A stretch of 64,000 nucleotides of DNA from Closterium sp. NIES-65 (taxonomy: Eukaryota > Streptophyta > Zygnematophyceae > Desmidiales > Closteriaceae), in the NCBI GenBank assembly GCA_948144175.1, contig CANXME010002275.1, positions 3,905,001 to 3,969,000 on the forward strand. Reading direction: 5' to 3'. The position numbers were made by a program, and so were the translations under genes. This document shows positions 38,014 through 61,518 of the stretch, one piece after another. Every line of letters begins with the position of its first letter. The stretch's first letter is position 1. The notes beneath the pieces were generated by a model. That model did no database searches, was not told where the DNA came from, and saw only the letters and a list, made by a program, of their open reading frames with translations.

Positions 38014-39401
38014 TTGCCATCTCCTCCAGAGTCCTCTCTTCCTACTCTTGGTGACTCGGAGTCTGACTCCCTTCGTGCTGCTTGTCCTTCGGTCACGCGT
38101 CTTCTTGCTACTGTTGTCACCGACCCTTCCTTTGAGTCTTGTGCTGCATGTGCCCTAGTTGCTCAGCTTGTTCACTTTGCTGCTCGCTGTCGTCTAGACT
38201 ACACTGCCAGTCTTGTTGCAGAGTCTGAGTATGTCTGTCCTCCATCCGTGGGGGGTGAGTGTGCTCTTACCACGGACGTCCTTGAGGATAGGCGGGAGGA
38301 GTTCTAGTGCTTTGCTGCTGCTTTGCCCCATCTCGTGTCCACGCTGATTGCCCCTGAGGGAGACCCGGATGCACCAGACATCCCAACTCCTCGATCGTAC
38401 ACTGAGGCGATCAAGGGTCCCTACTCCTCTCAGTGGAAGTCAGACATGGATGGCTTCTTGCAATTGCACAGGCACCTACGTCGATGAGGTTCCCCCACCT
38501 GGGGCGAACATCGTCAGTGACATGTGGATTTTCAAGGTGAAGCGGCCGTCGGGTTCTCCGTCTGTCTTCAAGGCGCGTTACATGGCTCAAGGCTTCAGTC
38601 AGCGGCACAGAGTTGACTACTTTCAGACCTTCTCTCCCACCCCAAAGATAATCACTCTTCGGGTGCTACTGCACATAGCCGCTCAGCGCGACTACGAGCT
38701 TCACTCTCTTGACTTCAGCACAGCTTTCCTGCAGGGCAGCCTGCACGAGGAGATCTAGCTGTGCCGCCCACCTGGCTTCACTGGGTCTTTCCCCTGGTAC
38801 CCAGTGGAGCCTGCGGTAGCCAGTCTACGGTCTCCGCTAGGCACCCCGAGAGTGGCACGACACAGTGAGGACTACACTTGCGGCTCTCGGGTTTGCTACT
38901 TCTATAGCCGACCCGTCACTGTTTCTACGCACCGACACCTCTTTGCCGCTGTTCTACATCCTTGTGTATGATGACGACTTTGTCTTTGCCACAGCTGACA
39001 CTGCTAGACTCGCCCACGGGAAGGCATAGTTGCAGAAGCGACACACGTGCACAGACCTGGGTGAACTGCGCAGCTACCTTGGCTTGTAGATCACCCGGGA
39101 CAGAGCACAGCGCACCATTACCCTGACTAAGTCACACATGGTGCAGCAGGTCCTTCAACGCTTCCGCTTCACGTACTCCTCGCCTCAAGCCACTCCTCTG
39201 TCCACTCGCCACTCGCTCTCAGCTCTACCTTCGAATGAGTCCGTAGAGTCGAGTGGCCCGTACCCAGAGCTTGTTGGCTGCCTCATGTACCTGATGATCT
39301 GCACACGACCTGACCTTGCATACCCTCTTAGCATCTTGGCACGCTATGTTGCTCCTGGGAGACACCGACCAGAGCACATGGCTGCAGCAAAGAGGGTGTT
39401 G
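38014..39401 (+). pseudogene. B-2 pre-RT and RT, RNase H start
   Basis: It contains SFESCAACALVAQLVHFAAR and the RT start (MWIFKVKRPSGSPSVFKARY, QTFSPTPKIITLRVLLHIAA, SLDFSTAFLQGSLHEEI). TAG at 38,756-38,758 replaces TGG. The catalytic box reads YDDDFVFATAD instead of YVDD, and a TAG at 39,087-39,089 replaces CAG. From 39,138 it is open (MVQQVLQRFRFTYSSPQATP... RPDLAYPLSILARYVAPGRH) to the break at 39,401. Confidence 0.8.
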
Positions 39402-39421
39402 TTCTTCGCCACGTTTCCAAG

Positions 39422-39835
39422 TTTCCAGATCTGCCTATTCTTTTCCGCATTCCCATGTACCAGAAAAAGATGGAGCTTGCTATGATTGTGGTGTTTTTCG
39501 TCAACCGGACAACGTTACGAGCGTGTACCCGTCAGAAAGCGTGGTGATGCGGTGCGTCATCGGTGTTTGGGGCGAGAGCAAGGCTGCCGCGCTGGTAGCA
39601 GTCATGACGTACTCCGTGGCGCGGGCAGGCGCTTCAACGCGCAAGCAGAGTGATTGGCGTGCGCGGATCTCGATGAATGGGCGCCGGAATTTTGCTGACA
39701 CTTTTGGGCTCCCTTGCGAGGCGAATCCCCGCCTGAAATTCGACTACAGCGAGCTAGTTTGAGACGAGGAGCGCACACCGACCCAAGTGTACAACTTGGA
39801 GAGCGAGGGTGGTATATCACTGGTCAAGCCTCTTG
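39422..39835 (+). pseudogene. Host gene H3, downstream exon (displaced by inversion)
   Basis: Right after the B-2 break the sequence runs GTTTCCAAG/TTTCCAG, giving possible 3' splice sites at 39,421 and 39,428. It ends at a strong donor G/GTAAGTG at 39,836. One frame reads CYDCGVFRQPDNVTSVYPSE, SVVMRCVIGVWGESKAAALV, SMNGRRNFADTFGLPCEANP, then a TGA and DEERTPTQVYNLESEGGISL. From 39,422 another frame gives FPDLPILFRIPMYQKKMELA. The two frames differ by an indel and the TGA is probably CGA-derived, so the exon looks decayed. I do not recognise the family. Its upstream partner is the minus-strand exon 61,508-61,122. Confidence 0.45.
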
Positions 39836-40737
39836 GTAAGTGTTGTTCGTGAGCATTGGTAACCACAGCTGTTACGCATGGTGCTGTATACGTCTTATGA
39901 TCTTGGCATACCCTTGGTTATGAAAGTACCCACCTTTCCATATAACTTATGACTGCATGTCTGACAACTCACTCGACTTTCCTCCCTTGGCCCGATTTCA
40001 CTCGACATCCTAGTTGGGCCTAGGCTCCTAAGCCTAGGCCCTAGTTAAACTTAACTCATCCTTGTTCTCATTTTAATATCATCTACTTCACTTGTAAGTT
40101 TTCTTGCAATTTCATTTTCTTGAACATTGTTATTTTATTGTAAACAAAATTGTTTGGTGTGTCAACGTTGTTGCTTGATTGTAAGATCTGTCTAAACAGA
40201 ATTTGCTAAAAGGAGATGTCAATGTTTTCGTCGACGGTAAGATTTTTTCATTCTGTTCTGGAGCTTTGTTTTCTAACCTCAATGACTGACGAATGATGTT
40301 TTACAATATACTATATGCCTGTGTTGCGGTTCAATATATTATAATTGGATCAATTCATTTTTGTAATTGTCTTCTAACAACTTTGTCGGTTCAAGGGTAA
40401 TATTGATTACTTCATGTCTGCACAACGTTTATTATGACTCAACTGAAGCCACTACTTAGATGCTGCGGTGTTTTTGTGTTATGCCAAATAATATATTTGA
40501 GCCTTATGGTTTTGGAAGTTGTGATAATTTGTATACATCATGGTGCAAGAATTATGCATTAGCGTTTCTAGTGTTTTCTTGTATAAACATTGTATTAATG
40601 TCCTATTTGAAATACAATGGGGCTTTAAGGCCAAACGCAAGAGAGGCAGTTGCAATGCAAGCAAACCCAGAGACGTCCCGAATCTGTCAGTGGGAGAGTC
40701 CTCAATGCTGCATGAAGAGAGGTCTCGAATGTGTCCC
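39836..40737. other. AT-rich intronic/intergenic DNA
   Basis: It begins with the GTAAGT donor of the preceding exon. AT-rich, with no convincing coding frame. It contains a family C LTR relic with the palindrome GGCCTAGGCT-CCTA-AGCCTAGGCC at 40,017-40,040. Otherwise I see nothing in it. Confidence 0.5.
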
Positions 40738-40829
40738 AAAAGTGTCTCGAAAGACACTTTCGGGTAAATTGGGCGATCCACTTTCAGGACATTTCACTTA
40801 GTTTCGAAAGTGTCTTTCGAGACACTTTT
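40738..40829. repeat. Perfect 25-bp inverted repeat with palindromic arms
   Basis: The arm 40,738-40,762 is the exact reverse complement of 40,805-40,829; the loop is 42 bp. Each arm is itself an imperfect palindrome around AGTGTCTCGAAAGACACT. TGTCCC and GGGACA motifs recur on both sides (40,732, 40,836, 40,864, 40,876). It may be the core of a hairpin MITE. Confidence 0.8.
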
Positions 40830-41032
40830 CAACCTGTCCCGAAAGTATTCGAAAAGAATATTTTGGGACATTTTCGGGACATTCCATTTTGGTGATGTGA
40901 CGGCGGAGCTGCCAGTGGTACCACGGCAGCCAACGTGGCGCTTGAGGATAGGTGCAACGAGGTAGCGGTGTCAATAGTTCAAACGGCGGCTCCAAGGGTG
41001 TTGGGCCGGAAGCAATAGCAGCGGCTGATGAG

Positions 41033-41262
41033 GCAGTGGTTCGACGATGCTCCTGATGAGCCCGTTTTGCCTGCATTCCCTGAAGTCAACCGGACAAGCC
41101 AAATCAACCAAGTCAACGCATTCGACGAATTACATGTTGTCAATGACCTTGACGTACTGAGCACAGTCAACACAGTCAATGCAGTCAACGCCACGACTGT
41201 CGCAACAGCTGTCAGTGACTATTTTGAATCAGCACCTGCTGACGCCTGCCTCGGATTCTGAG
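41033..41262. repeat. Direct repeat L flanking the kinase pseudogene
   Basis: It matches 42,567-42,876: both run from CAGTGGTTC...GCTCCTGA through clusters of GTCAAC hexamers to GACTATTTTGAATCAGCACC and GGATTCT. Spacing is about 1.5 kb. The GTCAA clusters are reverse complements of W-box TTGAC cores, which may be coincidental. Confidence 0.7.
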
Positions 41263-41362
41263 CCTTGGAGGCACGCTGCCTTGGGGTCAGCACCACCGGA
41301 ATGCATGGTGCCTGCAGGAGCATCTGGAAGGCCGCCATGCAGGTAGGGCCGTCCCTGCCATG

Positions 41363-41700
41363 GGGCCCCCCTGCTCTCCCGCCCTGCTCTCCCACCCTGC
41401 TCTCCCACCCTGATCTCCCACCCTGATCTCCCACCCTGCTCTCCCACCCTGATCTCCCACCCTGCTCTCCCACCCTACTCTCCCACCCTGCTCTCCCACC
41501 CTGCTCTCCCCACCCTACTCTCCCCACCCTCATCTCTCACCCTCATCTCCCACCCTAATCTCCCACCCTGCTCTCCCACCCTGCTCTCCCACCCTGCTAT
41601 CCCCACCCTGCTCTCCCCACCCTGATCTCCCACCCTGCTCTCCCACCCTGCTCTCCCACCCTGCTCTCCCCACCCTGATCTCCCACCCTGATTCTCTCTG
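41363..41700. repeat. CTCTCCCACCCTG minisatellite
   Basis: About 23 units of 13-15 bp (CTCTCCCACCCTG, CTCCCACCCTGAT and a CTCTCCCCACC variant). The long minus-strand GWESRVGEQGGR-type frames are produced by the 15-bp period. Confidence 0.85.
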
Positions 41701-41774
41701 CCTCATCCTCACCTTCAGCATCTGTGCTTTCCTTCCCTTTCCGCCCTGCCTCGTGCCTCTTGCCTTTCCAACAG

Positions 41775-42530
41775 GGCAGAGTGCTGCTGACGTGGCAGTT
41801 ACAGAGGAACTCAATGGCCACATTGACATCTTTCGGATAAAGAAGGAAACACAGGGTAAGACACCCTTGTCCGTTCCCTTCTACCCCATTGTGAATGTAT
41901 GAATAATGACTTCTGAAATGATGATCAAGCCTGTGTGCCAGCGTGCATGAGTCTTGCATTATGCAACTAAATCTGATCCTTCATACTTGGCCCACTAATT
42001 CAAGCCTTCGTTGCCATTACTGAATAGCTTCCACTACACTCCCCCATTACCACTGCTCTTCTGTTGATTTCTGTCGACGTTGCTGGCATACTCCCAGCAC
42101 ACCCACCCTTCCTTCGCTTTCTCATCCATTGCGTCTCTCCATCTCCCCCTCCCCCTTTACGACTGCTCCCTTCCCCCTCCCCCCCCCCCCCCCCCAGCAC
42201 GTGCATGTGGTGATGGGGCTCAGCTTTCTTCCCTCTTGCTTCTTCCACCCCACCCCTCTCCCCTCCTCCCCTCTTCCCCCCCCTCCTCCAGCACGTGCAC
42301 GTGGCAATGGAGCTCTGTGAGGGGGGAGACCTGTTTGACCGCGTTGCCTTGCAAAGAAGGCTCTCGGAACCTTCTGCAGCGCGCATCTTCCGATCGCTCA
42401 TGTTGGCCTTGCAGCACTGCCACTCGCACACCATCGTGCACCGCGACGTCAAACCCAAAATCATCCTTCTATCGAATCGCGCTATTAACAAGGATAATGT
42501 TAATGGCTGTGAGGTCAAGCTGACTTGGTG
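41775..42530 (+). pseudogene. CDPK/CaMK-like protein kinase fragment, two exons
   Basis: Exon 41,775-41,855 (acceptor TTCCAACAG, donor G/GTAAGA) encodes SAADVAVTEELNGHIDIFRI, matching kinase subdomain III-IV (xEVAIMxxLNGHPNIVRI). Exon 42,290 onward (acceptor CTCCTCCAG) encodes HVHVAMELCEGGDLFDRVAL, then SEPSAARIFRSLMLALQHCH and SHTIVHRDVKPK, the hinge and the catalytic loop HRDVKP. The conserved Asn of the loop (usually KPEN) is missing and the DFG motif is replaced after VKLTWWHG. The two exon phases do not match, and the acceptor plus first codons occur twice (42,195-42,222 and 42,287-42,316). This is a decayed fragment; the N-lobe and C-lobe ends are absent. Confidence 0.65.
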
Positions 42531-42566
42531 GCACGGCACGGAAATCGTGACACTGGCTGATGCAGC

Positions 42567-42876
42567 AGTGGTTCCAAGTTGCTCCTGAGCAGCTCATTCC
42601 GCCTGCCCGCATTCAACCGAACAAGCCAAGTCAACCAAGTCACCCAGGTCAACCAAGTCAACCGAACAAGCCAAGTCAACTAGGTCAACGCACTCGAAGC
42701 AGTCCATCATGCTGTCAATGACTTTGACGCATCTAGCATAGTCAACACAGTCTACACAGTTGATCGAGTCAACTCAGTCAATTCAGTGAATGTAGCCAGT
42801 GAAGCAGTGACTATCGCAACAGCTGTCGGCGACTATTTTGAATCAGCACCTGCTGACGCCAGCCCCGGATTCTAAG
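42567..42876. repeat. Direct repeat R flanking the kinase pseudogene
   Basis: Second copy of the 41,033 repeat with an expanded GTCAACCAA/GTCAACCGAACAAGCCAA cluster at 42,605-42,790. Confidence 0.7.
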
Positions 42877-42957
42877 CCTCGGAATCAGCTCCGGATTCAG
42901 ATTCCAAGCCTGCACCCTCGGTCAAGCCTCAGAAAACAACCGTGGGCTTGCATTCCC

Positions 42958-43530
42958 AGCAGCAGAAGCAAGGGAGGTGTAAGTGGGGAAGGTGCAAGCA
43001 GGGGAGGTGCAAGTGGGGGAGGTGCAAGCAAGGGAGGTGCAAGTGGGGGAGGTGCAAGCAGGGGAGGTGCAAGTGGGGGAGGTGCAAGCAGGGGAGGTGC
43101 AAGTTGGGGAGGTGCAAGCAGGGGAGGTGCAAGTGGGGGAGGTGCAAGTAGGGGAGGTGCAAGTGGGGGAGGTGCAAGTAGGGGAGGTGCAAGCAAGGGA
43201 GGCGCAAGTGGGGGAGGTGCAAGTGGGGGAGGTGCAAGCAGGGGAGGTGCAAGCAAGGGAGGCGCAAGTGGGGGAGGTGCAAGTGGGGGAGGTGCAAGTG
43301 AGGGAGGTGCGCAACTTGCAAGTGGGGGGGGGGGTGAAAGTGGGACAGGCGAAAGCGGGAGAGGTGAAAAAAACAAGGGAGGCACAAGTGGGGGAAGGTG
43401 CAAGGGGGGATTACAACCAGGGCAGGCAAAATTGGGGGAGGTGAAAGTGGGGGAGGCGAAAGTGGGGGAGGCAAAAGTGGGGGAGGCGAAAGTGGGGGAG
43501 ACGAAAATGGGGGAGGTACGAACGGGGGAG
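42958..43530 (+). repeat. 15-bp GGAGGTGCAAGTGGG minisatellite (long open frame)
   Basis: About 24 units of 15 bp at 42,958-43,310 encode GASGGGASRGG-type repeats in one frame. A related block of 15-bp GGGGAGGCGAAAGTG units at 43,433-43,520 encodes VGEAK repeats. The surrounding frame is open from 42,838 to 43,704 (288 codons), but all three frames and the opposite strand are also open, so a protein is not supported. Confidence 0.75.
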
Positions 43531-44086
43531 CTGATGATGCGGCCAGTGGACTTTCGGTCGCGAGCGTGCTTGAGGGTGTTCCAGACTCCCAGGGGCCATG
43601 TTCAAGAAGTGTACCCTAGACCCAAAACTCTGAAGTGTAAAGGGGGGATTTACTGTTTATTCCGAACAGTACTTTCGAACTCACCCTTATCCTTATCTTC
43701 CTAGATTTCCTAGTGCCACGGGGCACTCTACCTTTCTTGCTTCTACTTTCTAGTCCCACGAAGTACTTTCCGACATTCGACCTTGCATGCTATATCATCC
43801 TTGCTTGTATCCACCAATATCAATCAGTTCTCATTCAACTATTCTTTAATTACTTAGTAACTTCTTCGCCTATTTCGCCAATAGTTCTTTCGCCAAAGTC
43901 TTCCGCCGCGTTTCATCCTCGACTTGTCGACCCCGCTAATTCTTTAGCGGACTTAGGCTGTCGGGCCTAACACTTGGTATCAGAGCCTTCGCGGGGAGCG
44001 ACTTCGAGCGAGCAACCGTCGACGACGAGACTACGACGTCATCGTCCCGCGGTGCCGACTTGCAGACTTGGAGTCGTCGAGCGAAC

Positions 44087-44618: not shown

Positions 44619-44749
44619 TCTCAGAACATTATAGCTTATACATTTGTATAGGCTGTAGTGGGGTAGCCTATAAGGGGTACAACCCAATTAGGGTTAGTAC
44701 TTGTACCCAACTGTTTCATAGTTCATTCATCCATTCTCACTTCTCGTCA
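44619..44749 (+). repeat. B-3 5' LTR (131 bp)
   Basis: TCTCAGAACATTATAGC...CTTCTCGTCA. It ends directly at the PBS TGGTATCGAGCAGG and is highly similar to 51,022-51,150. Confidence 0.9.
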
Positions 44750-44859
44750 TGGTATCGAGCAGGTTCCCGAGTGGGAATACTGCCTAGGGCCCACCACGAA
44801 CTTTTTTTTTTCCTTCCCTGCCCGGAGCGCGCTTCGCTCCTAACCCGAGTAGCGCCTCG

Positions 44860-45760
44860 AGCCGCCCTTACGGCCCCTTCGCGCCGCCTTCTACGGCCCC
44901 TCGCCCCGCTCTTACGGCCCCTTATGGCCCCGTCTTGCCCCTTGCGGCCCCAATTAGGCCCCTTACGACCCCGTCGCGACCTCGCCTAGGCCCCTTACGG
45001 CCCCGTCGCGTCCCCGCCTAGGTCCCTCCGCGGCCCCGTCGTGCCCCTTACGGCCTCGCCTAGGCCCCTTACAGCCCCTTCGCGGCCTCGCCTAGGCCCC
45101 TTACGGCCCCTCCGCGGCCCCGCCTAGGCCCCGTATGACCCCTTACGGCCCCCTACGGCCTCGCCTAAGCCCCTTACGGCCCCTCCGCGGCCCCGCCTAG
45201 GCCCCTCCGCGGCCCCGTCTGGCCCATTATGGCCCCCTTTGCGGCCCCGCCTAGGCCCCTCCGCGGCCCCGTCTGGCCCTCTTTATGGCCTCGTCTGGCC
45301 CCTTACGGCCCCTTTGTGGCCCCGCCTACGCCCCTCCGCGGCCCCGTCTGACCCGTACGGCCTCTCCGCCACCCCGCCTAGGCCCCTCCGCGGCCCCGTC
45401 TACCCCTCCCCATTTACGGCCCCCCTGGCCCCTTTACGGCCCCGCTACGGCCCCTTTGCGGCCCCGTCGCCACCTGCGGCCACGTCGCCACCTGCGGCCC
45501 CGTCGCCACCTACGGCCCCGTCGAGACCTGCGGCCCCGCCGCCACCTACGGCCCCGTTGCCACCTGCGGCCCCGTCGCCACCTGCGGCCCCGTCGCCACC
45601 TGCCGCCCCGCCGACACCTGCGGCCCCGCCACCACCTACAGCCTTATCGCCACCAGCGGCCCCGCCGCCACCTGCGACCCCGTTGCCACCTGCGGCCCCG
45701 TCGCCACCTGCGGCCTCGCCGCCACCTGCGGCCCCGCCGCCCAGCGCACGCACCGCCGAG
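44860..45760 (+). repeat. Leader array of B-3
   Basis: The first half has CCTAGGCCCCTTACGGCCCC/CCTCCGCGGCCCCG units. The second half (45,450-45,745) has an 18-bp unit CGTCGCCACCTGCGGCCC. No protein is supported. Confidence 0.75.
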
Positions 45761-45977
45761 CAGCCGAACCGCCGGCCAGTTGAGCCGCCCGACCGCCGAG
45801 CCGCCCAGCAGTAGAGCCGCCCGACCGCTGAGCCGCCCAGCACAGAGCAGCCGAGCCGCCCGACCACCGAGCCGCTGAGAAGCCGAGCCACCCGACCCCC
45901 CCACTTGCGTGGTAAGAGCATAGTCTCTGCCACTGCACTACCCTTCCCCACTGTATCACTGCCTGCCTACTGCTGTT

Positions 45978-47038
45978 ATGGCCTCCCCTTGCGTTCTCAC
46001 CTTTGACGCTGAGGGTCGGGCAGTGGACTTTGAGGTCTGGGTAGATGATCTGCAGCTTTCCCTGCAGTGCGATAGGGCAGACGGCCTTTCCCTATTTGAC
46101 CTCACTTCTAGTGCCTCCCCTGCCCCTGCTGTTGATGCTGATGCCACTATTCGCTCACAGTGGGCCACGCGCGATGCTGCTGCTCGCCTTGCTGTGCGTC
46201 GCCACTTACCGACCACTAAGCGTGCACACTTTAGCCAGTATAAGAGTGCTCAGACCTTGTACGATGCTGTGGTTGCACGCTACTCTTCCCCTGCCACTGC
46301 TGCACTGAGCTGCGTCATGCTACCGTACCTCTTCCCTAACCTTGCTGCCTTTTTCAAAGTCGCTGACCTCATTAAGCACCTCCGCACTAGTGACACTCGC
46401 TACCGCGCTGCGCTTCTTGCTGAGTTCTGCGCCAAGACCCCCCCCCCCCCCCCCCCCCCCCCCCCATGTACATCACCCTCTACTACATAGTCACCCTTCT
46501 CCCTCACTCTCTCCCTGTAGTCAGGGACCACTTCCTCTCGGTTTGCCCCACCACTCTCACCGTTGACCTCCTCGAGAAGGCCCTCCTAGCGATAGAGAAG
46601 AGCATAATCGCTAAAGGAGCCTCTCATGGTGACCCTCGCACCCCCGTCTTTGAGGGGTGTTCTCCCTCCTCCCTCTTGCCCTTTGTTGCCTCTGCTGCTG
46701 AGGCTGACCTCGTTGATTTTGAGTCGGTCGGCGCTGCGTCTGCCCCGAGCGGGAGAAGCCGCACAGGCAAGGGCAAGGAGGGCAAGGGCGCTGGAGGGGC
46801 AGGAGGGGGCGGTGGAGGTGGTAGTGGAGGCAGTGGAGGGAGTGGGGGTGGTGGTGGGAGTGGTGCCGAGGGTGGCGGAAGCAGCAGTGGAGGCGGCGGA
46901 GGCGGTGGAGGTGGCGGAGGGAGCGGAGGCGGCGAAGGTAGTGGAGGAGGAGGAGGTGGAGGAGGCGGCGGAGGCGGCGGCTGCGGTGGTGGAGCGAGTC
47001 GCGACTCTGCGCAGAGAAGTGGCGCTGGTGGTGGTTAG
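45978..47038 (+). pseudogene. B-3 gag
   Basis: ATG 45,978 (MASPCVLTFDAEGRAVDFEV), then the capsid domain to CAKTPPPP. A poly-C tract of about 27 (46,438-46,465) shifts the frame, and the rest (MYITLYYIVTLLPHSLPVVR, SVCPTTLTVDLLEKALLAIE, GDPRTPVFEGCSPSSLLPF, Gly-rich tail) runs from 46,466. It stops at TAG 47,036-47,038, where B-4 has CAG (56,305-56,307). Confidence 0.85.
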
Positions 47039-49760
47039 CGCTGGAGTGGTGTGACCCTATCCCCTCAGCAGCTTCGTGAGTGGTACACTGCACGTTAGCG
47101 CGGTTGGGGTTTTGGTCCCTGCTCTTACGTCCTCCGTACCGGCGACCGCGTTGGTGAGCAGTGCAGAGGCCCGCACTCCACCCTGCGCTGCTTTGGTCGC
47201 CTGGCAGACGTGTGGCGTCGCCAGTTCCCTGAGGCGTCAATACACCCTTGCTGGGGAGATCTGGCTAAGGCCGGGGTTGCTATCTTTGATCTTGACTTTG
47301 ATGCTATCCTTGCTGCCATGTGTGCTGTTGATACTAGTGTTGCTGGTGACTGCTACCTATGTGTACCGCCAGACCCGGGCATTGAGGCCACTGCTCTAGG
47401 TGCGGGTGAGGCTGCTGCTCTAGGTGCTAGTGAGTCTGCTGCCCCAGGTGCCAATGCGTCTGCCGCCCCAGGTGCTGGTGAGTCTGCTCTCTCAGGTACT
47501 ACGTCGGCTCAGGCCTTCCACACCTTCACCCTGGACTCGGGTGCGTCCCGCTCCTTCTTTCGAGACCGCACCACTCTCACGCCGCTTAGTCGGCCGGTTG
47601 CAGTCTCCCTGGCAGACCTCTCTGGAGTCATGACCTTGCTAGCTTCTCCACTGTCCTTCTGTGCCCGGCAGCCCCCTCTGGCACCTTGTCTTGTCTCTAC
47701 CTCCCCTCGCTCTCTACAAACTTGGTGAGTGGAGCGGACCTACAGGATCGAGGGGTTGACCAGTTCACTCCTGCAAGTCAGCGAGTGACCCACTGCACGT
47801 ATGCATGCACATGCCGACACTTGGCCACGTTCACCCGTCGGCCAGGGTCGAGCCTGTACACCCTTACTACTGAGTCTCCTCCTGCTGCTGAGTCTGCCCA
47901 GGTAGCTGCGTTGAGTCAGGTGTTTGCTGCAGCGTCCAGGTCTGGTCCTGAGTCTGCCCCCTGCTCGTGTCATCTGCTGTCCCACCTGACTCTCCTTTGG
48001 CACCACCGCCTTGGTCACCCCTCCTTGCCTTGACAGAGGCGGGGAGTTTTCCTCTGCCCGTCTGGGAGCCTTCTGTCGTGCACAGGGCATCTGCCAGACC
48101 TTCACGCTTTCGGCCTCTCCACAGCAAAATGGGATTGCTGAGCGCCGCATCGGCATGGTCATGGACGTCGCTCATACGTCCATGATGCATGCGGCTGCCC
48201 CCCATTTTCTATGGCCGTTTGCGTTTCAGTACGCCGCGCATCAGCTCAACCTTCAGCCCCGGGTCTCCTTGCCAGAGACCTCCCCCGCCTTGCGGTGGAT
48301 AGGGAAGGTTGGCAATGCGTCTGCGTTTCAGGTCTAAGGATCTCGGGCGTTTGTCCGCGACTTGTGTTCGGACAAGCTGTCCCCCCGTGCTGTTCCCTAC
48401 GTTTTCCTAGGATTCCCCCCTGACGTGCCTGGTTGGCAGTTTTACCACCCCACCTCACGTCGTGTTCTGTCCTCCCAGGACTTCACCTTTGACGAGTCGG
48501 TGCCTTACTACCGTCTCTTCCCCTACCGCACTGCGCCCCCCCCCCCCCCCCTCCCCCCCCCCCTCCGCCGCCGTTCTTCCTTGCGCCAGGTCCTCCCCAG
48601 GTGGACCCCCTCCCCCCTCAGGGTCCTGCCCCGTCAGGTGTGTCCCAGGTAGACGCAGTCGAGCTTGTCGAGGTGGCTGTTTACTCTGGTGCTGCTAGAG
48701 ATGCTAAGCCTGCGGGTCTCGGGTCTGGGGGTGCTGAGTCTAGAGCTGTTGAGTCTGGGGGTGCTAAAACTGGGGGTGCTGAGTGTGGGGATGCTGAGCC
48801 TGGGGGCGTTGAGCTTGGGGGTGCAGAGCCTAGGGGTGCGGAGCCTGGGGGTGCTGGGTCTGCTCGTGTGGCCGCCGGCGGTGCTTCATCGAGGCGGGAG
48901 CCGCTCTCTCCACAGGAGCTGCGCGAGTGGTTTGTCCGCCGTTGGAGACGTGCTGCTGAGTCTGGGGGTGCTGCTGGAGCTACTGGAGGTGGTCCTACTG
49001 TCGTTGCTGTCGGTGCTGGTGCTGCTGGAGAAGGAGCTGCTGGGGGTGTTGGCGCTGGTGTTTCTACTCGTGTTGGTGCGTCTGGGGGTGCTGCTTAGGC
49101 TGCTGTTGCTGACGGTCCTACTGGAGTTGGTGCTGCTGGAGCTCGAGCTGCTGGGGGTGTTGGCGCTGGTGCTTCTGAGGGTGCTGGAGTTGGCACTGCT
49201 GGAGCTGGAGGTGCTGCTGGCGCTGGTGCTGCAGTTGGTGGTACTGGTGCCGTCCTTGCTGGTTCTGGAGGCGTTGAGCGGCCGAGGCCGTACTTCGTTC
49301 CGCTCCTGAAGCAGGTTCTTGGTCTCCCGCCCTCTCCTAGTCCTGCTCCTCCCTTAGAGTGTCCACCGCCTGTCTAGTCGCAGTCAAAGTTACAGCCCGC
49401 CTCCCCTCTACCTGCTCCTTTTCCCTACACTGGTCCTACTGGAGGTCTTGCTGAGCGTCGTGAGCCTGCGTCTCATCCTGCGTCGCCTATTCGTGCTGCT
49501 CGCACTAGTGGTCGTACTGCGCGTCCGCGTCCCCCTGCGGTCCCCATCACACACAAGATGGCACTGCGTCCTTCCACTCCTCCTATGCGTGTCCCGTTGC
49601 CGTCTCCTCCAGAGTCCTCTCTTCCTTCTCTTGCTGACCCGGAATCTGACTCCCTTCGTGGTGCTAGTCCTTTGGTCACGCGCCTTCTTGCTACTGCTGT
49701 CACTGACCCTTCCTTTGAGTCCACTGCTGCGTCTGCTCTAGTTGCTGAGCTTGTTGACTT
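47039..49760 (+). pseudogene. B-3 gag C-terminus, protease, partial integrase, linker
   Basis: The REWY module and Cys/His segment carry a TAG near 47,096 (CAG in B-2). The frame from 47,210 includes ASIHPCWGDLAKAGVAIFDL and the intact protease box FTLDSGASRSFFRDRTTLTP. After a frameshift near 47,630: STNLVSGADLQDRGVDQFTP and LLWHHRLGHPSLP, then the deletion to DRGGEFSSARLGAFCRAQGI, SPQQNGIAERRIGMVMDVAH and the cap domain. The 15-bp GAEPG-type array is at 48,690-48,860, followed by LSPQELREWFVRRWRR and the long Gly/Ala linker. Confidence 0.8.
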
Positions 49761-49796
49761 GGGCTTGCTCCTTCTACAGCCGGCACGTCACTGTTT

Positions 49797-50822: not shown

Positions 50823-51021
50823 TCTTGTTTGTACTGTACTCTTTCTATACCGTCAATTGCCTGTTTAACTTTATATATATGATCTTGCATGTGAAATGGC
50901 CTTGTGGCCTTACTCTTGTGCTTGGACTGTGTGGTGACTTTGTGATCCACCCTGAGCTTGCTTTGCTTTTCTTGACTGGTCTTGTGACCGCTTGTTCTCC
51001 CCCACTTTGCCTATGGGGATG

Positions 51022-51150
51022 TGTCAGAACATTATAGCTTATACATTTGTGTAGGCTGTAGTGGGGTAGCCTATAATTGGTACAACCCAATCAGGGTTAG
51101 TACTTGTACCCAACTATTTCATAGTTCATTTCCATTCTCACTTCTCGTCA
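51022..51150 (+). repeat. B-3 3' LTR (129 bp)
   Basis: TGTCAGAACATTATAGC...CTTCTCGTCA, preceded by the polypurine tract and followed by CAAGT. Confidence 0.9.
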
Positions 51151-51645: not shown

Positions 51646-51661
51646 CGGGTCGCTAGCTGGT

Positions 51662-52812
51662 GTGGAGGTCCCCGTACCCTCCACGTCTACCAACGTAGAG
51701 GAGACTGCCTCACAGCAGTCATCTATGGAGAACTCGGTAGACACGGTTGATCGTCCTGTCGTGCTTCTAGGGAAGCTTTGCGGAGTATTAATCAAGATTT
51801 CCGTAGATAGCGGAGCCAGCCATTCGTTCGTGTCTTCATCGCTAGTTAGTCGTCTCCATCTTGAAGCAGATTTAGTAGTCAACTTCAAGGATGCTCGCAT
51901 GGTAGATGGGATGCCGCTTCACATCGGACCGATCATCCGCAAGTTGCGCGTAGTGCTAGGACCAATCACAGTTAGGCGTGATTTCAACTCTGCGACGCTG
52001 GACGGATACGATTTTTTCTTCGGGAGATATCGGCTACGCACGATTAGTACTCACTTTGATTGGGCTCAGGGAAGCTGCAACATCAAGGTAGACGGGGACT
52101 TCCGAGAGCTGCCACAGTGGAGCGATGGGACCACATCATCCATAGCTATCACTAATGGTGTTCGTATGCGATAGTTAGTGAAGCGTGCAGCATGGATCTT
52201 TGTGGTTTTCCTTGAGGAGGTGGAAGCTGAGGAGGGGAAAGGAGGGATCGCAGCATTTGGCGATAAGACGACTCTTCCTGCTGATGTGAGTGCACTCTTA
52301 GTGGAGTTTAGAGACGTCTTCCCCGACGAGTTGCCCCCGGGGTTACCTCCCAGCCGAGCAGTCGACCATCAGATAGAGTTAGAGCCGGGGAGCAGGCCAG
52401 TAGCAAAACCGCAGTAGAGGTTGAGTCCAGCAAAGACCGAGGAGATGACGTAGCAGGTTAGGCACTTTCTCGCGCAGGGTTTCATTTAGCCATCTAGATC
52501 GCCTTCGGCAACACCAATCCTTTTCGCACCCAAGAAAGACAAAGGGTTACAGATGTGCATAGATTACCGCGTACTGAATGCCACCACCGTTAAGAATAGG
52601 TTTCCGGTGCCGAGAGTAGAGGATCTCCCACATGCAGTGCAGGGCGTTAGAGTTTTCTCCAAGATCGACCTTCGTTCGGGTTACCACCAGATTCGCGTAG
52701 TTCAAGAGGACCAGCACAAGACGGCGTTTCGTACGAAGCAGGGGTTGTACGAGTTTAGAGTTCTACCATTCGGTTTGACGAACGCCCCAGCGACGTCTCA
52801 GACGCTCATGAA
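51662..52812 (+). pseudogene. Gypsy G protease and RT N-terminal part
   Basis: Retropepsin: KISVDSGASHSFVSSSLVSR, then LDGYDFFFGRYRLRTISTHF. The pre-RT segment is FRDVFPDELPPGLPPSRAVD, HQIELEPGSRPVAKPQ. RT motifs are MCIDYRVLNATTVKNRFPVP, VFSKIDLRSGYHQIRV and FRVLPFGLTNAPATSQTLMN. Stops at 52,172, 52,415 and 52,453 interrupt it. A3 is inserted immediately after the codons for LMN (ATGAA, 52,808-52,812). Confidence 0.85.
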
Positions 52813-54059
52813 TGTTATAGTCACAGTAGGCTCCAATGTGCCTAAAACGAAAGATAGTGTGCACAGTCGGATTTCTGCACAGCGGCTTCAAACGTTCATA
52901 GCGATCTGCTCACAACTCCAAATGACTTTATTCAACTTGGATCTGGAGCGCCTTAACCTCACCTAAAACGGGAAATTTAGATCTCACGCTTTCATTAAGA
53001 ACTGACGACACAGCGCCGGTTTGAAAGAACGGCACTATGGCAGCAACATAGTCTTAGAACACAAGATAGGAAGAGTTAGGAAGAGTTACGAGTTGGGAAT
53101 GACTCCCAGCTCCTACAAACCCCAAGAGCCGAGCTACAGTGATGTCGAATAGTGCCACACTGTCCCCAACCACGAAGGGTCTCGAAACTACCCTTCATTA
53201 GGGCCTACACCAAGTGAAATGTTACACTACACAAAGTAATGTAACTATGTTCAATATCTTGAGGTGCACCCTTTTGGCGAGCTTCGAAATCACTTGAGGC
53301 TTGACACCAAGGCTCGGGCTCTTCATCACAAACTCATCCTTGAGTTCTTGATGGGTCTTCTGCACACACCTGCGACACGCCGAACGTTCAACACAGGACA
53401 AAATAGAAACCGCGCACGACAAAATAAAAACCGCGCGCGAGACACAAACGACCGCGTAACACGCGTCTAGCGATAACTCGCTATTGACTCGACACACACA
53501 CTCGACATCATGACTCAACATTCACACACGATTATAAGCATGAAATATATATCATCCCATGCCCTCATACCATTCCATACACACACCCCTGCACGCACAC
53601 GGACAACAAGCCGAGTGCAAAACGTAGGGTTGCACCAACAAACTCCCCCTCGGATTGTTGGCCTTAAGATATGTTGCTCTCTCAGTTCAGGGCCATCCCA
53701 GCCAGCTTGCAACACTTCCAATGCTGCTGCTCCACCAGCCTCTTAGTCATCATGTCTGCCGGCTGCCCCGTGGTCTTCACGTACCGCAACTCAACTTCAC
53801 CCGCGGTCACCATGCTCCTCGTCCAATGCCACTTCACCCTCATGTGCTTTGTGAGTCCATGGAACACAGGGTTCTTAGCAAGAGCAATGGCACCCTGACT
53901 GTCACAGTAGAGTGGGATAGGTCCTTGCTGCTCCTCCCCCAATTCAGCCAACAAATGCCGCTGCCACACAATCGCTCGTGCCCTCATACCATTCCATACA
54001 GACACACATGCACACACACGGACAACAAGCCGAGTGCAAAACGTAGGGTTGCACCAACA
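52813..54059 (-). mobile_element. A3: minus-strand family A element with a large internal deletion
   Basis: Inserted in gypsy RT with the exact duplication ATGAA (52,808-52,812 and 54,060-54,064). On the minus strand: about 85 bp of 5' LTR start (54,059 to about 53,974), then directly the last part of RNase H (AIVWQRHLLAELGEEQQGPI, YCDSQGAIALAKNPVFHGL), polypurine tract and a full 3' LTR (53,640 to 52,813, 828 bp). Everything between the 5' LTR start and RNase H is gone. The join creates a 111-codon frame fusing LTR-derived codons to RNase H (54,017 to 53,682), which is accidental. Confidence 0.9.
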
Positions 54060-54196: not shown

Positions 54197-54469
54197 TGTC
54201 AGAACATTATAGCTTGTGCTGTTGTGTAGGCTATAGTGGGGTATCCCATAGGGGGTACAAACCAATTAGGGTTTCCTATATGTACTCACTTCATTCATAG
54301 TTGATCCATCCTCGTTCATACTTGTAACATGGAATCAGAGCACGTCCCCTCCTAGGGACTGTTCCTAGGGCCCACCGAAGCGCGCCTCGAGTCGCGCTCC
54401 CTTTTTTTTAGCGACCCGCCGTGTCGCCCCTAGCAGCCCGTCGCGCCGCCCTCACGGTCGCGTCAAGCC

Positions 54470-55010
54470 GCCCTATTGTGCGGCCCCGCCACCTACCTTC
54501 GCGACCCCGCCGCCTACCTTCGCGGCCCCGCCGCCTCACTTCGCGGCCCCGCCGCCTTCCTTCGCGGCCCCGCTGCCTACCTTCGCGGCCCCGCCGCCGC
54601 CTACCTTTGCGGCCCCGCCGCCTACCTTTGCGGCACCGCCGCCCCACTTCACGGCCCCGCTGCCTACAGTCGCGGCCCCGCCACCTACCTTCGCGGCCCC
54701 GCCGCCTACCTTCGCGGCCCCGCCACCTACCCTCGCGGCACCGCCGCCACCTACCTTCGCGGCCCCACCACCTACCTTTGCGGCCCCGCCACCCCACTTC
54801 GCGGCCTCGCCGCCTACAGTCGCGGCCCCGCCACCTACCTTCGCGGCCCCGCCGCCTACCTTCGCGGCCCCGCCGCCTACCCTCGCGGCCCCGCTGCCAC
54901 CAACCTTTGCAACCCCGCCGCCCCACTTCGCGGCCCCGCCGCCTACGGTCGCGGCCCCGCCGCCTAACTTCGCGGCCCCGCTGCCCTACCTTACCGGCCC
55001 CGCCGCGCCA
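54470..55010 (+). repeat. Leader array of B-4
   Basis: Units of 21-24 bp, CCGCCGCCTACCTTCGCGGCC, repeat about 24 times. The unit is unlike those of the other B leaders. Confidence 0.8.
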
Positions 55011-55303
55011 CCCTGAACCAGCGCCACCACGCCGCCCTGCACCGGAGCCGCCTAGCAGCATACCCGCCCAGCAGCCGAACCGCTCGGGAGCCGAGCCGCC
55101 CTGCCGCCGAGCCGCTCAGCAGCCGAGCTGCCCGGGAGCCGAGCCGCCCTGCCGCCGAGCCGCCCAGCAGCCGAGCCGCCGAGCTGCCCAGCTGCCGGGC
55201 CGCCCTACTCCCGAGCCGCCCGACCTGCCCTGCCCGGTGAGCACAGCACCACTGTTACTGCGTGCCCTTCCCCTACTGCTTGCACTGCTACACTGTCGCC
55301 GGC

Positions 55304-55594
55304 ATGGCTACCCCTAGTGTCCCCGCTTTTGACGCTGAGGGTCGAGCCATTGACTTTGAGGTCTGGGTCGTCGACCTGCAGCTGTTCTTACAGTGCGATA
55401 GGGCGGACGGTCTTTCTCTCTTTGACCTCACCTCTGGCGCCTCTCCTGCCCCTGCTGCTGATGCTGACCCCACTGTTCGCTCTCAGTGGGCCACCCGCGA
55501 TGCTGCTGCACGTCTTGCTGTGCGCCGCCACCTGCCTACCATTGAGCGCACGCACTTTAGTCAGTACAAGAGTGCTCGGACCACGACGCTGTAG
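55304..55594 (+). pseudogene. B-4 gag N-terminal domain
   Basis: ATG 55,304 starts MATPSVPAFDAEGRAIDFEV, followed by FLQCDRADGLSLFDLTSGAS and RSQWATRDAAARLAVRRHLP. A 4-base deletion (ACC-ACGACG for ACCTTGTACGACG) near 55,583 shifts the frame, which then ends at TAG 55,592-55,594. The rest of gag continues in the next frame. Confidence 0.85.
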
Positions 55595-55626
55595 TTGCGC
55601 GCTACTCTTCCCCTGCCACTGCTGCA

Positions 55627-57996
55627 GTGAGCCGCCTCATGCTACCGTACCTCTTTCCTGACCTTGCTGCCTTTCCCACTGTTGCTGACCTCATTACGCA
55701 CCTCCGCACTAGTGACACTCGCTACCGCGCCGCCCTTCCTACTGAGTTCTGCGCCAAGAACCCACCCCCCATGTACATCACTCTCTATTACATAGTCACA
55801 CGCCTCCCTGACTCCCTTCGCGTAGTCAGGGACCACTTCATCTCAGTCTGTCCCACAACCCTGCTGGCGGCGGAGAAGAGCATCGCCGTTGTAGGAGCCT
55901 CTCGTGGTGACCCTCGCACCCCCATCTTTGAGGGGTGTTCTCCTTCCCCCCTGCTGCCCTTTGTTGCCTCTGCTGCTACTGCTGACCTGCTTGGTCTAGA
56001 GTCGGTCGGCGCGGCGTCTGCCCCTAGCGGGAGACGCCGCCCTGGCAAGGGCAAGGGGGGCAAGGGCGCGGGTGGAGTTGGCGGGGGCGGTGGAGGTGGC
56101 GGTGGAGGCGGCGGAGGGAGTGGGGGTGGCGGTGGGAGTGGTGGCGGGGGCGGTGGTGGTGGTGGCAGCAGCGGCGGAGGAGGCGGTGGCGGCGGCAGCG
56201 GTGGGAGCGGAGGCGGCGGTGGTGGCGGAGGTGGAGGCGGCGGTGGCGGAGGGGGTGGAGCTGGTCGGGGTGGTGCCCCGCAGCGGAGCGGCTCTGGTGG
56301 TGGTCAGCGCCAGCAGCAGCAGCAGCAGCAGTCGCGTTCGCGGGACATCCTCCCGCCCCAGCAGCTCCGTGAGTGGTACACGCAGCGTCAGCGTGGTGGG
56401 GGTTTTGGCGCGTGCACCTACGTTCTTCGTTCCGGCGACCACGCGGGTGAGCAGTGTGGGGGTGCCCACTCCACCCAGCGCTGCTTTGGCCGCCTGACCG
56501 ACGCTTGGCGTCAGCAATTCCCTGAGGCTAGTGAGATTCCCCGCTGGGGAGAGCTGTCTAGGGCTGGCGTAGAGATCTTTGATCTTGACTTTGATGCTAT
56601 CCTTGCTGCCATGTATGCTGTGACTATTAGTGATGAGGGTGACTATTACCGGTGTTTCCTGCCCAACCCGGGCATTGGTACTGCTGCGCTAGGTGCTGGT
56701 GAGGCTGCTGCTCTAGGTGCCAGCGCGTCTGTGCTCTCAGGTACTGATGAGGCTGCGCTCTCAGGTACTGCGTCACCTTCGGCCTCCCTCACCTTCACAC
56801 TTGACTCAGGGGCTTCTCGCTCCTTCTTTCGTGACCGCACCACACTCACGCTGCTTGGTCGGCCGGTTGCAGTCTCCCTGGCTGACCCCTCTGGGGGTCC
56901 AGTCCACTCTCACTTCTCCACTGTCCTCCCGTGTCCGGCTGCCCCCTCGGGCACCCTGTCTGGTCTGTACCTCCCCTCGTTCTCGACAAACTTGGTGAGT
57001 GGTGCTGACCTGCAGGATGCGGGGGTTCACCAGTTTACTCCAGCGAGTCAGCAGGTGACCCACTGCTCGGACGCCCGCACAGGCCGACACCTAGCCACGT
57101 TTTCACGTCGATCGGGGTCGAGCCTCTACACCCTGACCACTGAGTCTCCTCCTGTCCCTGCGTCTGGCCAGGTAGCTGCGTCGGGTCAGGTGTTTGCTGC
57201 TGCGTCCAGGTCTGCTCCTGAGTCTGCCCCCTTCACGTGTCGCCTACTGTCTCACGAGACTCTCCTGTGGCACCACCGTCTTGGCCCCCCCTCCTTGCCT
57301 CGTCTTAGGGACATGGCTTCTCGTGTCCTTGTCTCTGGTCTCCCCCGGTCTCTCCCTCCCCTTCCTTCGGGGCCTGGACCTTCCTGTGTCCCTTGTGTCG
57401 AGGGACGGCTCCGGGCTGCCCCCCACTCCTCACAGTTTCCTCCGACAGAGGCTCCTCTGCAGACGCTTCACATGGACGTGTGGGGCCCGGCCCGCGTCCG
57501 TGGACAGGGTCACGAGCGCTACTTTCTGCTGGTGGTTGACGACTACTCGCGTTACACCACAGTCTTTCCGTTGCCCAGCAAGGGTGATGTCACTGAGGTG
57601 TTGATCGACTGGATCCGCGCAGCTCGTCTCCAGCTCAGGAGGAGCTTCGGCTCGGACTTTCCTGTTCTGCGTCTGCACTCTGACCAAGGCGGAGAGTTTT
57701 CCTCTGGCCTTCTGCGAGCCTACTGTCGTGCACGAGGCATCCGCCAGACCTTTACGCTTCCGGACTCTCCGCAGCAAAATGGGATTGCTGAGCGCCGCAT
57801 TGGCATGGTCATGGACGTCGCTCGTACGTCCATGATGCATGCGGCTGCCCCCCATTTTCTGTGGCCGTTTGCGGTTCGGTACGCGGCGCATCAGATCAAT
57901 CTTCACCCCGGGGTTTCCCGGCCGGGGAAGGTTTGTACCTCCCCAGCTCTGCTGTGGACTGGGAAGGTCGGCGATGCGTTTGCGTTCCGTGTCTGA
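55627..57996 (+). pseudogene. B-4 gag-protease-integrase, 789-codon open frame
   Basis: This is the longest open frame of the window and the best family B reference. Its contents in order: gag (SRLMLPYLFPDLAAFPTVAD, MYITLYYIVTRLPDSLRVVR), a Gly-rich tail of about 90 residues, the REWY module (ILPPQQLREWYTQRQRGGGF), a Cys/His segment (GDHAGEQCGGAHSTQRCFGR), the protease box FTLDSGASRSFFRDRTTL, the HHCC region (LLWHHRLGPPSLPRLRDM... CVPCVEGRLRAAPHSS), and an integrase core with HMDVWGPARVRGQGHERYFL, VVDDYSRYTTVFPL, RLHSDQGGEFSSG and SPQQNGIAERRIGM (acidic triad present). It stops at TGA 57,994-57,996, where TGG is expected, within the cap domain. Confidence 0.9.
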
Positions 57997-58020
57997 GGAT
58001 CTCGGGCGTTTGTCCGCGAC

Positions 58021-59341
58021 TTGTCTGCAGACAAGCTCTCCCCTCGTGCTGCTCCTTGTGTCTTCCTTGGCTTCCCCCCTGACGCTCCAGGGTGGCAGTT
58101 CTACCACCCCTCCTCTCGTCGTGTTCTGTCCTCCCAGGACGTCATGTTTGACGAGTCAGTCCCCTTCTACCGTCTCTTCCTCTACCGCACTCCTTCCCTT
58201 TCCCCGCCGCCACACTTCCTTGTGCCAGGTCCCCCCCTGGTAGACACCCTTCCCCCTCAGGGTCTTGCCCCTTCAAGTGTGTCCCAGGTTGACGGAGTCG
58301 AGCCGGTCGAGGTTGCTAGTGACTCTGGTACTGCTGCGGGTGCTGAGCCTGGGGGTGCTGCCTCTGGGGGTGCTGTGCGCGTGGGTGCTGAGCCTGGGGG
58401 TGCTGAGTCTGGGGGTGCTTCGACTGAGGGTGCTGAGCCTGGGGGTACTGAGCCTGGGGGTACTGCCACTTGGGGTGCTGAGCCTGGGGGTGCTGAGTCT
58501 GGGGGTGCTACGTCAAGAGCTGCTGAGCCTGGGGGTGCTGCGTCTGGAGCTACTCAGCCTCGAGGTGTGGAGCCTGCCGCCGCTGGACCTCCCCTTGTGG
58601 CGTCTGGCGGTGCTGGGCGTGGAGGTTCTCCGGGTGCTCCGTCTCGGAGGGAGCCACTCTCTCCACAGGAGCTGCGTGAGTGGTTTGCTAGCCGCTGGAG
58701 GCGTACTGCTGGAGCTGGAGCTTCTTCGGCCGCTGAGGGTGGTGGTGCCGCCGGTCTCGGAGCTGCTGGGCCTGCGGGTCCTACTGGAGCTGGTGAGCCT
58801 GAGGGTGTTGGTGCTGAGACTGCTACTGTCTGTCCTGGCGGTGGTCTTGCTGCTAGCGCTGCTGGAGGTCCTGCCGCCGGAGGTGCTGTTGGCGCTGGTG
58901 CTGCCGGTGAGGGTGCTGGTGCTGTCCCTGCTGTGTCTAGCGTCCCCGCGTGGCCTCGGTCGTACTTCGTTCCGCTCATGCAGCAGGTTCTTGGTCTCTC
59001 TCCTCCTGTAGAGTGTCCACCGCCTGTCCAGTCCCAGTCACTGTTAGAGCCTGCCTCCCTGCTGCGTGCTCCCTCTCCTTACACTGGTCCTACTGGAGGT
59101 CTAGCTGAGCGTCGTGAGCCTGCGTCTCGTCCCGCGTCGCTTGTTCGTGCTGCTCGTGCTAGTGGTCGCGGTTCGCGTCAGCGTCCTCCTCCTGTCCCTG
59201 GCACGCACCGGATGTCTCTGCGTCTGTCCATTGCCCCTCTGCGTGCCCCTTTGCCTTCTCCTCCTGAGTCCTCTCTTCCTGCGCTTGCCGACCCGGAGTC
59301 GGACTCTCTTCGTGCTGCCAGTCCTACTGTTACGCGTCTTC
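58021..59341 (+). pseudogene. B-4 integrase cap domain and linker
   Basis: In frame after the TGA: SADKLSPRAAPCVFLGFPPD, FYHPSSRRVLSSQDVMFDES, then the 15-bp array GGTGCTGAGCCTGGG at 58,330-58,570 encoding GAEPG units, SRREPLSPQELREWFASRWR, an Ala/Gly-rich segment, RSYFVPLMQQVLGLSPPVEC, SPYTGPTGGLAERREPASRP and LPALADPESDSLRAASPTVT. B homology ends at 59,341; the following codons to 59,424 are E antisense. The open frame runs 467 codons in total. Confidence 0.85.
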
Positions 59342-60118
59342 CCGATGAAGATTGCATCTCATCTTCGGTTGTTTGCAGGCCGACTCCGCACTTCATCAGC
59401 TGGTGGAGGGACAAGAGATTGTAGCGGAGTTCCGGCACGATGAGAACATACCTTATGTGGATGCAGTAGCTGGTGTCGTGTGACTCCAGCTAGACCTGTA
59501 TGTGGCTTCTGGTGTAGATCGTCTGACTGTTGGCAACGGTGATCTCCACTTCGTTGAATAGTTGTTCCCAGTTGAGAATGAAGACGTTTGATGGCACCAT
59601 GTGTTGGCCACAGCAGCTGTCCAGGTACCACGTGCTGACTTCTGTCCCCGCCTTGGCCAGGTTGGCGAGTTTAGGAGTGGTGTGGTGCTCCATGTGGTGC
59701 TCGTTCTCGTAGTCATAATAACACCCTTCTTCATGTGGCGATTCTTGGACCCACTGCGGCATTTCCTAGTCTAACTGCATCCGTCCGATTCTTAGCTCGT
59801 CGTACATTGGATCATTTTCTTCCTCATCTTCAACTGATCCTTCAGGCCGTTCGTGAGGACATTTCCTCCCACTTGCAGAAGAAGCGGTAGTGTCGGCTTG
59901 GATGCACCATGCAAGTCAAAACCTTGCTTTTGCCCTTGTCGTTTGTGTTTGCAGAAACACGCGCCGGAGCTTGAGTCGTGCTGGCGACCGCTAGTGGTGA
60001 CACTATTTGGTTGCACGCCAGAGCTTCTCCTTGCTGGTGAGCAGGGGCACCCTTCTGGTTTTTGTTGTTGCCTTTCAGCTTCCAGCAGTCTTGAATCATA
60101 TGCCCAATCTTCTTGAAG
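59342..60118 (-). pseudogene. Family E gag C-terminus and protease (inverted part)
   Basis: Read from 60,118 leftward: KKIGHMIQDCWKLKGNNKNQ (second half of a zinc knuckle), GEALACNQIVSPLAVASTTQ, then protease STWYLDSCCGQHMVPSNVFI, where the usual DSG is DSC, and EVEITVANSQTIYT, ending with MPELRYNLLSLHQLMKCGVG near 59,400. It starts with CTTCA (60,118 to 60,114), the same five bases that precede B-2 at 33,446-33,450. Joining 33,450 to this strand gives CKYFKKIGHMIQDCW in frame, so this is the missing part of the E element from 32.5 kb. It is cut at 59,342 by the B-4 junction. Confidence 0.85.
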
Positions 60119-60964
60119 TGTGAAGATTAGAACGAGAGAATGATTGAACTATGCAACAGTTGGGTACAAGTACTAACCCTAAATGGGTTGTACCCCTTAT
60201 GGGCTACCCCACTACTGCCTACAGAAATGTATAAGCGATAATGTTCTAACACAACCCCATAGGCAAAGTGGGGGAGAACCAGTGGTCACAAGACCAGTCA
60301 AGCAAAGCAAAGCAAGCTCAGGGTGGATCACAAAGTCACCACACAGTCCGAGCACAAGAGCAAGGCCACAAGGCCAGTTCACATGCAAGATCATATATAT
60401 AAAGGTAAACAAGCAAGTGCAGGTATAGAAAGAGTATAGTACAAACAAGATCAAGAAGTGAGCAAGCGAGGCCAGGTAGGCACAAGACCTAGCATCGTAC
60501 AGAAGCGCTGATGATCACAAGGCGGAAGGGCCTTGGTGAAGATATCAGCAATGTTGGCCTCAGAGGCCACGTAAGCAAGGCGGAGCTGACCACGCTGCTG
60601 CAGCTCACGAGCCAAGAAGTAGCGAAGAGCAATGTGCTTCGTTCTGTGCTCCAGTCTGTGCCCTCGACACAAGGCCAGCATGGCCTTGTTGTCTACGTAC
60701 AGAACTGGAGGAGAACGAGGCGGCTCTCCTAGGTTAGTCAAAAAGTAGGTGAGCCAGCATAGCTCCTGTACAGCCATGGCCCCTGTGTAGATCTCAGCCT
60801 CACAGCTGGAGCTGAGAATAGAAGACGAGCGGGTAGACAGCCAAGGCTGAAGGTGTAACCATGTGACGACCGCTGCACAGTCTGGTCGTCAGCCCAAGAA
60901 GCGTCACCGAGACCTCTGAGGACCACTCGACGTCGCCCTCCAAGCACTAGCCCCATGCCCCATG
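60119..60964 (-). mobile_element. B-2, 3' part (RNase H end, PPT, 3' LTR), inverted
   Basis: On the minus strand it starts at 60,964 (GMGLVLGGRRRVVLRGLGDA), runs through RNase H (SWADDQTVQRSSHGYTFSLG; a short deletion near 60,835; MAVQELCWLTYFLTNLGEPP, PPVLYVDNKAMLALCRGHRL, KHIALRYFLARELQQRG, ADIFTKALPPCDHQRF), stops at 60,451-60,453, then has polypurine CTATGGGGTTG and the LTR 60,251 to 60,119 (133 bp). The LTR begins TGTTAGAAC, the subtype otherwise found only at 33,451. About 16 bp of element are missing between 39,401 and 60,964. Confidence 0.92.
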
Positions 60965-61121
60965 CGAGAAGAACAAGTCGACTAAAACAGAACAAGGCCA
61001 GAAAAGGAGGGGCGTGAGGAAAGGGTGAAGAGGGGATGAACAAACAGCAGTGCCCCTTAGCCATAACCCACACAAACACAACCCACCAATTCCCATTCCA
61101 CACTTTCAATATGGCACTTAC

Positions 61122-61508: not shown

Positions 61509-61518
61509 CTGGTCAGAT

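Follow-up and report, generated by a model that had tools for sequence, protein, structure and literature searches.

The 64,000-bp window analysed here (positions 3,905,001 to 3,969,000 of contig CANXME010002275.1 of Closterium sp. NIES-65; free of N, with all coordinates below being those of the window) very probably contains a 21.6-kb inversion in the Closterium chromosome. The inverted block lies in a region rich in dead retrotransposons and would have been flipped after the insertion of one of these, the long terminal repeat (LTR) retrotransposon B-2 of family B. Three objects are split by the inversion, namely, B-2, the E element found on its outer flanks and one host gene, and in each case the cut ends are compatible. 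Both reciprocal junctions, i.e., 39,401/39,402 and 60,964/60,965, are present in the one sequence, and flipping a single block brings B-2 (compared by pieces), E together with the CTTCA duplication flanking B-2, and the host gene back to collinearity. Two breaks and a loss of 16-20 bp account for both halves of B-2 and their LTRs, for the duplicated CTTCA, for the E flanks and for the host-gene pieces. An inversion of the same limits, following B-2 insertion, had been proposed in an earlier note made from the sequence alone; the transposon evidence fits that proposal, and its host part was confirmed independently by related proteins. The features considered are listed in Table 1.

Family B belongs to the Ty1/copia LTR retrotransposons, with integrase preceding RVT_2 in the sibling copies, these rather than B-2 having been scanned (rve in 55,561-57,996, 46.2 bits; RVT_2 in 49,758-50,822, 44.3 bits), and with an LTR pair and a 5-bp target duplication. 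Upon comparison of the window with itself, the 5' part of B-2 showed 87.5% identity to B-1 (over 1,588 bp), 92.4% to B-3 (over 516 bp) and 83.5% to B-5 (over 701 bp), the values for the 3' part being 87.0%, 89.1% and 77.7%, respectively. When 300-bp pieces were aligned separately, the last 300 bp before 39,401 reached 15,691 in B-1, 50,273 in B-3 and 31,220 in B-5, with the minus-strand half picking up at 15,712, 50,294 and 31,237, respectively. All three window copies spanning this point place the B-2 break identically, and 20, 20 and 16 bp, respectively, are missing between the B-2 halves. The figures differ because CATG beside the right break could belong either to B-2, as in B-5, or to the host; since B-1 and B-3 are the copies nearer to B-2, these alignments make a loss of 20 bp somewhat more likely than one of 16 bp. 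Accordingly, the earlier description of B-2 as stopping at 39,401 and continuing on the minus strand from 60,964 is borne out by alignment to three siblings, as is the smallness of the accompanying loss, although the figure of about 16 bp given for it is not firm.

The B-2 LTRs group together with a tree support of 0.871 and both start with TGTTAGAAC, a start found in none of the remaining nine of the 11 LTRs compared, in agreement with their earlier assignment to a subtype unlike the other B LTRs here. The next-best match of either is the 5' LTR of B-3 (84.7% and 85.5%). True LTR pairs elsewhere in the window share 89.9% (B-5) and 95.3% (B-3) identity, such that the value of 91.0% obtained for B-2 is normal for a true pair in this region. 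As to the outer flanks, when CTTCA is counted once, the two E parts read as one continuous frame, CKYFKKIGHMIQDCW. This, together with the presence of CTTCA at both LTRs, upholds the earlier view that the flanks are a single E element and that CTTCA is the B-2 target duplication, which was created when B-2 inserted into E. A duplication of 5 bp recurs at B-5 (TGACT/TGACT) and at element C (CTCTT/CTCTT), and four of five positions match at B-3 (GAAGT/CAAGT) and likewise at element D. The Pfam matches in E fall under the cut-off of 27, both on the left (Retrotran_gag_2, E 0.0016, 18.4 bits) and on the right (Pol_BBD, 21.7 and 21.9 bits). The second Cys of the zinc knuckle expected in E is already Phe and E is therefore decayed.

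Relatives of the host gene were sought with the exon at 61,508-61,122 plus the sequence after 39,402 as query, yielding 15 proteins, all from Closterium. A translated search against the window split 11 of the 15 into a minus-strand piece (within 61,517-61,101) and a plus-strand piece (within 39,383-39,885). The pieces lie no more than 5 residues apart in eight of these (P0121, P0122, P0123, P0125, P0127, P0128, P0129 and P0133), are 16 residues apart in P0131 and overlap in P0132; in P0124, the residues adjoin, yet the annotated protein is without the stretch around the break. P0121, P0122, P0123 and P0125 are each a single annotated protein that spans the two sides, and they present the uninverted order, at the protein rather than the DNA level and for no object other than the host gene. 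Weak additional matches of P0123 and P0125 at 58.3-58.9 kb (E 2e-4 and 6e-4) were taken as chance. When the host exon alone served as query, none of 21 candidates was found at E 0.01 or better, a failure explained by the length limit (the relatives found later comprise 238-608 amino acids). No Pfam family was matched by P0121 and P0127.

In P0122, P0123 and P0125, the splice joins KAWN to KKMEL, which places the acceptor, TACCAG, at a position ending at 39,463 and gives an intron of about 219-226 bp; the host break is therefore intronic. The exon at 61,508-61,122 and its donor GTAAGT, as read in the earlier note, agree with the relatives, whereas the intron of about 180 bp ending in TTTCCAAG or TTTCCAG, also proposed there, had to be given up in favour of the acceptor at 39,463. 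Two other possibilities were rejected. TTTTAG at 60,987-60,982 was considered as an acceptor; the stretch that follows is protein in P0121 only, being spliced out in P0122, P0123 and P0125. The frame open from 39,403 was considered as an exon; between 39,410 and ~39,496, the matching frame is a different one. In the window, the host-gene copy is a pseudogene: its frame shifts near 39,497, and a TGA stands at 39,760. The first 158 residues of the gene lie outside the window, and in 39,836-43,600 its later exons do not follow, a protein-kinase fragment being found in their place. At the other end (61,519-61,530), the B-6 LTR starts 2 bp past the end of the host-gene match at 61,517, indicating that the same gene copy was also cut by an insertion.

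Table 1. Coordinates of the features discussed, in positions of the window.
Feature	Position	Strand	Basis or remarks
Inverted block	39,402-60,964	.	21,563 bp; limits set by B-2 sibling copies and host-gene relatives
B-2 5' part, LTR to within pol 3' region	33,451-39,401	+	Aligns to B-1, B-3 and B-5, every alignment stopping at 39,401
B-2 3' part, rest of pol 3' region and 3' LTR	60,119-60,964	-	Aligns to B-1, B-3 and B-5, resuming 16-20 bp past the end of the 5' part
B-2 5' LTR	33,451-33,584	+	91.0% identity with the LTR at 60,251-60,119; mutual best of 11 LTRs
B-2 3' LTR	60,119-60,251	-	Partner of the 5' LTR in the 11-LTR comparison
CTTCA, B-2 target duplication, 5' copy	33,446-33,450	+	Direct reading
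CTTCA, B-2 target duplication, 3' copy	60,114-60,118	-	Direct reading
E element (copia-type), gag part left of B-2	32,585-33,450	+	Retrotran_gag_2 on 32,903-33,226
E element, end of gag to protease region, right of B-2	59,342-60,118	-	Pol_BBD on 59,493-59,765 and 59,334-59,489
Host exon ending KAWN, donor GTAAGT	61,122-61,517	-	P0121 residues 159-290, 91.7% identity
Host intron 5' part, 157 bp to the break	60,965-61,121	-	End reads STCSS-R-M, as P0121
Host intron 3' part, 62 bp, acceptor TACCAG	39,402-39,463	+	39,410-39,463 reads HVSKFPDLPILFRIPMYQ versus HVSKFPDLPILFRIPTYQ in P0121; acceptor per P0122, P0123 and P0125
Host next exon, pseudogene copy, donor GTAAGT at 39,836	39,464-39,835	+	P0126 83% over 115 aa, P0124 94% over 87 aa, P0123 59% over 131 aa
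B-3, inside the inverted block, sibling for placing the B-2 break	44,619-51,149	+	
B-4, inside the inverted block, without RT to 3' LTR	54,197-59,341	+	

At the host break, P0121, itself from NIES-65, carries 28 extra residues, STCSSRMLICHVSKFPDLPILFRIPTYQ, which apparently correspond to translated intron. P0121 reads STCSSRM-LIC-HVSKFPDLPILFRIPTYQ; in the window, STCSSRM runs through CATG at the right junction, and HVSKFPDLPILFRIPMYQ is encountered on the left side, 8 bp past the left junction. If TTG at 39,399-39,401 is common to B-2 and host, then 11 nt separate these two segments in the window, as compared to 9 nt in P0121. The restored intron stretch amounts to 86 nt in the window versus 84 nt in P0121, and the host site therefore lost little or nothing. 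At the joins, the common bases are TTG (3 bp) on the left and G to CATG (1-4 bp) on the right; by chance, at least 3 bp are expected per join in ~5%, at least 4 bp in 1.6% and at least 1 bp in ~44% of cases. The longest match between the 2-kb stretches around the two breaks is 10 bp, in either orientation, a finding that speaks against repeat recombination as well as against the way in which assemblies usually come to be misoriented. Two breaks followed by end joining thus seem the best explanation of how the inversion arose, given so short a longest match, the bases lost from B-2 and the few bases common at the joins. One double-strand break would have occurred in the 3' part of the B-2 pol region and another in the host intron, with both being rejoined crosswise by end joining; B-2 would have shed 16-20 bp at its break and the host site little or nothing.

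Several points weigh against the inversion or the mechanism proposed for it. The inversion was read from a single assembled sequence, with both junctions being known from the assembly alone. Neither B-1 nor B-3 aligns with the four bases closest to the right break. Low-complexity matches aside, the 39-kb side alone is matched by three of the 15 host-gene relatives (P0126, P0130 and P0134) and the 61-kb side alone by one (P0135). Microhomology of the length seen at the joins is weak evidence for a mechanism, being suggestive only. Finally, TTGTTCTTC is found at both junctions; when 5,000 pairs of 24-bp stretches were drawn at random, 11 had a common word of at least 9 bp. Its presence at both is not fully explained; the host intron may contain a short repeat, or copied filler may be involved. 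The pair would also be produced, in the relative orientation observed, if the same inversion had involved a staggered host break that was filled in, so duplicating TTGTTCTTC; yet the stretch restored up to HVSK would then fall ~14 nt short of its length in P0121, and the R-M reading at the right junction would have no explanation, making such filling-in decidedly improbable. An assembler could instead have misoriented the block, with the living genome keeping the ancestral order, an error for which the density of related repeats in the region would speak and which would suit junctions seen in assembled sequence only. Misorientation, however, normally takes place between long inverted repeats, whereas no more than 10 bp are common around these breaks; each join falls in sequence specific to its place, and plain misorientation would not remove bases from B-2. 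Such an error is accordingly improbable, and the junctions are likely to be real in the living genome.

The number of inverted B and C copies in the window might suggest that the inversion arose via recombination between inverted repeats. Inverted repeats at both breaks are lacking, however, the breaks being within B-2 and a host intron, with nothing longer than 10 bp in common and with bases having been lost, such that this route can hardly be entertained. It is just as difficult to believe that the two halves are not partners, i.e., that 60,119-60,964 came from another broken B copy via other events. Although several B copies in the window are without a 3' end and could have served as partner (B-4 and the heads B-6 and B-7), the LTR at 60,251 is only 70.5%, 69.5% and 58.9% identical to these (and 60.6% to B-0, also without a 3' end), as compared to 91.0% to B-2. 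Moreover, CTTCA and the E frame fit B-2, the gap in pol is just 16-20 bp, and the host gene independently demands the same two breaks. More room is left for a many-break event in which the inversion and the junctions at 59,341/59,342 and ~62,272/62,277 arose together, given that three broken junctions (59,341, 60,965 and ~62,272) lie within ~3 kb. Still, each of the other two can be made by plain deletion between elements of opposite orientation, and nothing dates them together, so that such an event is unlikely. A reading in which the inversion is one join of a local many-break event, and the stretch a small but legible trace of shattering in a desmid chromosome, is if anything slightly less probable. 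The two-break inversion remains the reading that these comparisons favour.

In addition to the host-gene piece, the inverted block carries a protein-kinase fragment at 42,283-42,465 (Pkinase, 51.9 bits) and a Ty3/gypsy-type element, G (RVT_1 at 52,490-52,966, 65.1 bits), into which B-3, a piece of C and B-4 are inserted. B-3 is short of ~710-720 bp of pol at 49,757-49,758, as compared to B-2 and B-1. At 59,341-59,342, B-4 (plus strand) breaks off in the middle of pol and E (minus strand) takes over, a junction for which a plain deletion suffices. At 62,272-62,277, the 5' end of B-6 (plus strand, from 61,519) meets the gag region of B-7 (minus strand, from ~63,938), tail to tail. B-2 insertion precedes the inversion; the B-2 LTRs are 9% different, a figure that does not date the inversion or its order relative to B-3, B-4 and B-6. 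Elsewhere in the window, minisatellites at 9,776-10,390 and 10,777-11,182 are mutual inverted copies, with a B leader-like stretch between them (9,776-11,182), and the copia-type element C (24,061-30,522), with LTRs 96.8% identical, is inserted in B-5 between the two copies of its 5-bp duplication, of CTTCT type. The best relatives of C pol are proteins of Closterium sp. Naga37s-1 (96%) and NIES-64 (95%), which, together with the 15 host-gene relatives, by themselves place the window in Closterium or a very close relative; no relative of C pol was found among viral contigs, and C had no match among plasmids.

Small chromosomal inversions resulting from two breaks and end joining are known in plants, flies and mammals. 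The inversion described here is the same in kind, with two reciprocal junctions, little sequence lost at one break, a few bp of microhomology and no long inverted repeats; what differs is that its history can be read in one sequence, the cuts having gone through a gene as well as an LTR element and its target. The rearrangement is of an ordinary type, supported by unusually clean evidence. Inversions also arise by ectopic recombination between transposable elements, as described for Galileo in Drosophila (PMC2775673). A transposable element is likewise found at a breakpoint here, yet only one breakpoint lies in an element, the other being in a host intron, without a shared repeat, and B-2 was a bystander. 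In the same genus, work on structural variation in the Closterium peracerosum-strigosum-littorale complex gives repeat contents of 47.7-64.4% for two strains that it names, and strains differ greatly, according to the available text of PMC10407611. That text concerns a similarly repeat-rich genome and has copy number as its subject, with inversion named once, for Drosophila. A literature search for Closterium with copia and LTR retrotransposon combined matched a single paper, on a diatom; one on small inversions with the terms combined gave no match, and strain Naga37s-1 was named in none of the papers searched.

The inversion opens no new type of mechanism, yet describes junctions at the base level in a streptophyte alga. 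It offers a rare instance of an inversion that can be proved from one raw sequence, with a transposon, its target and a gene all cut and matchable, and via this rearrangement one gene copy would have been lost.

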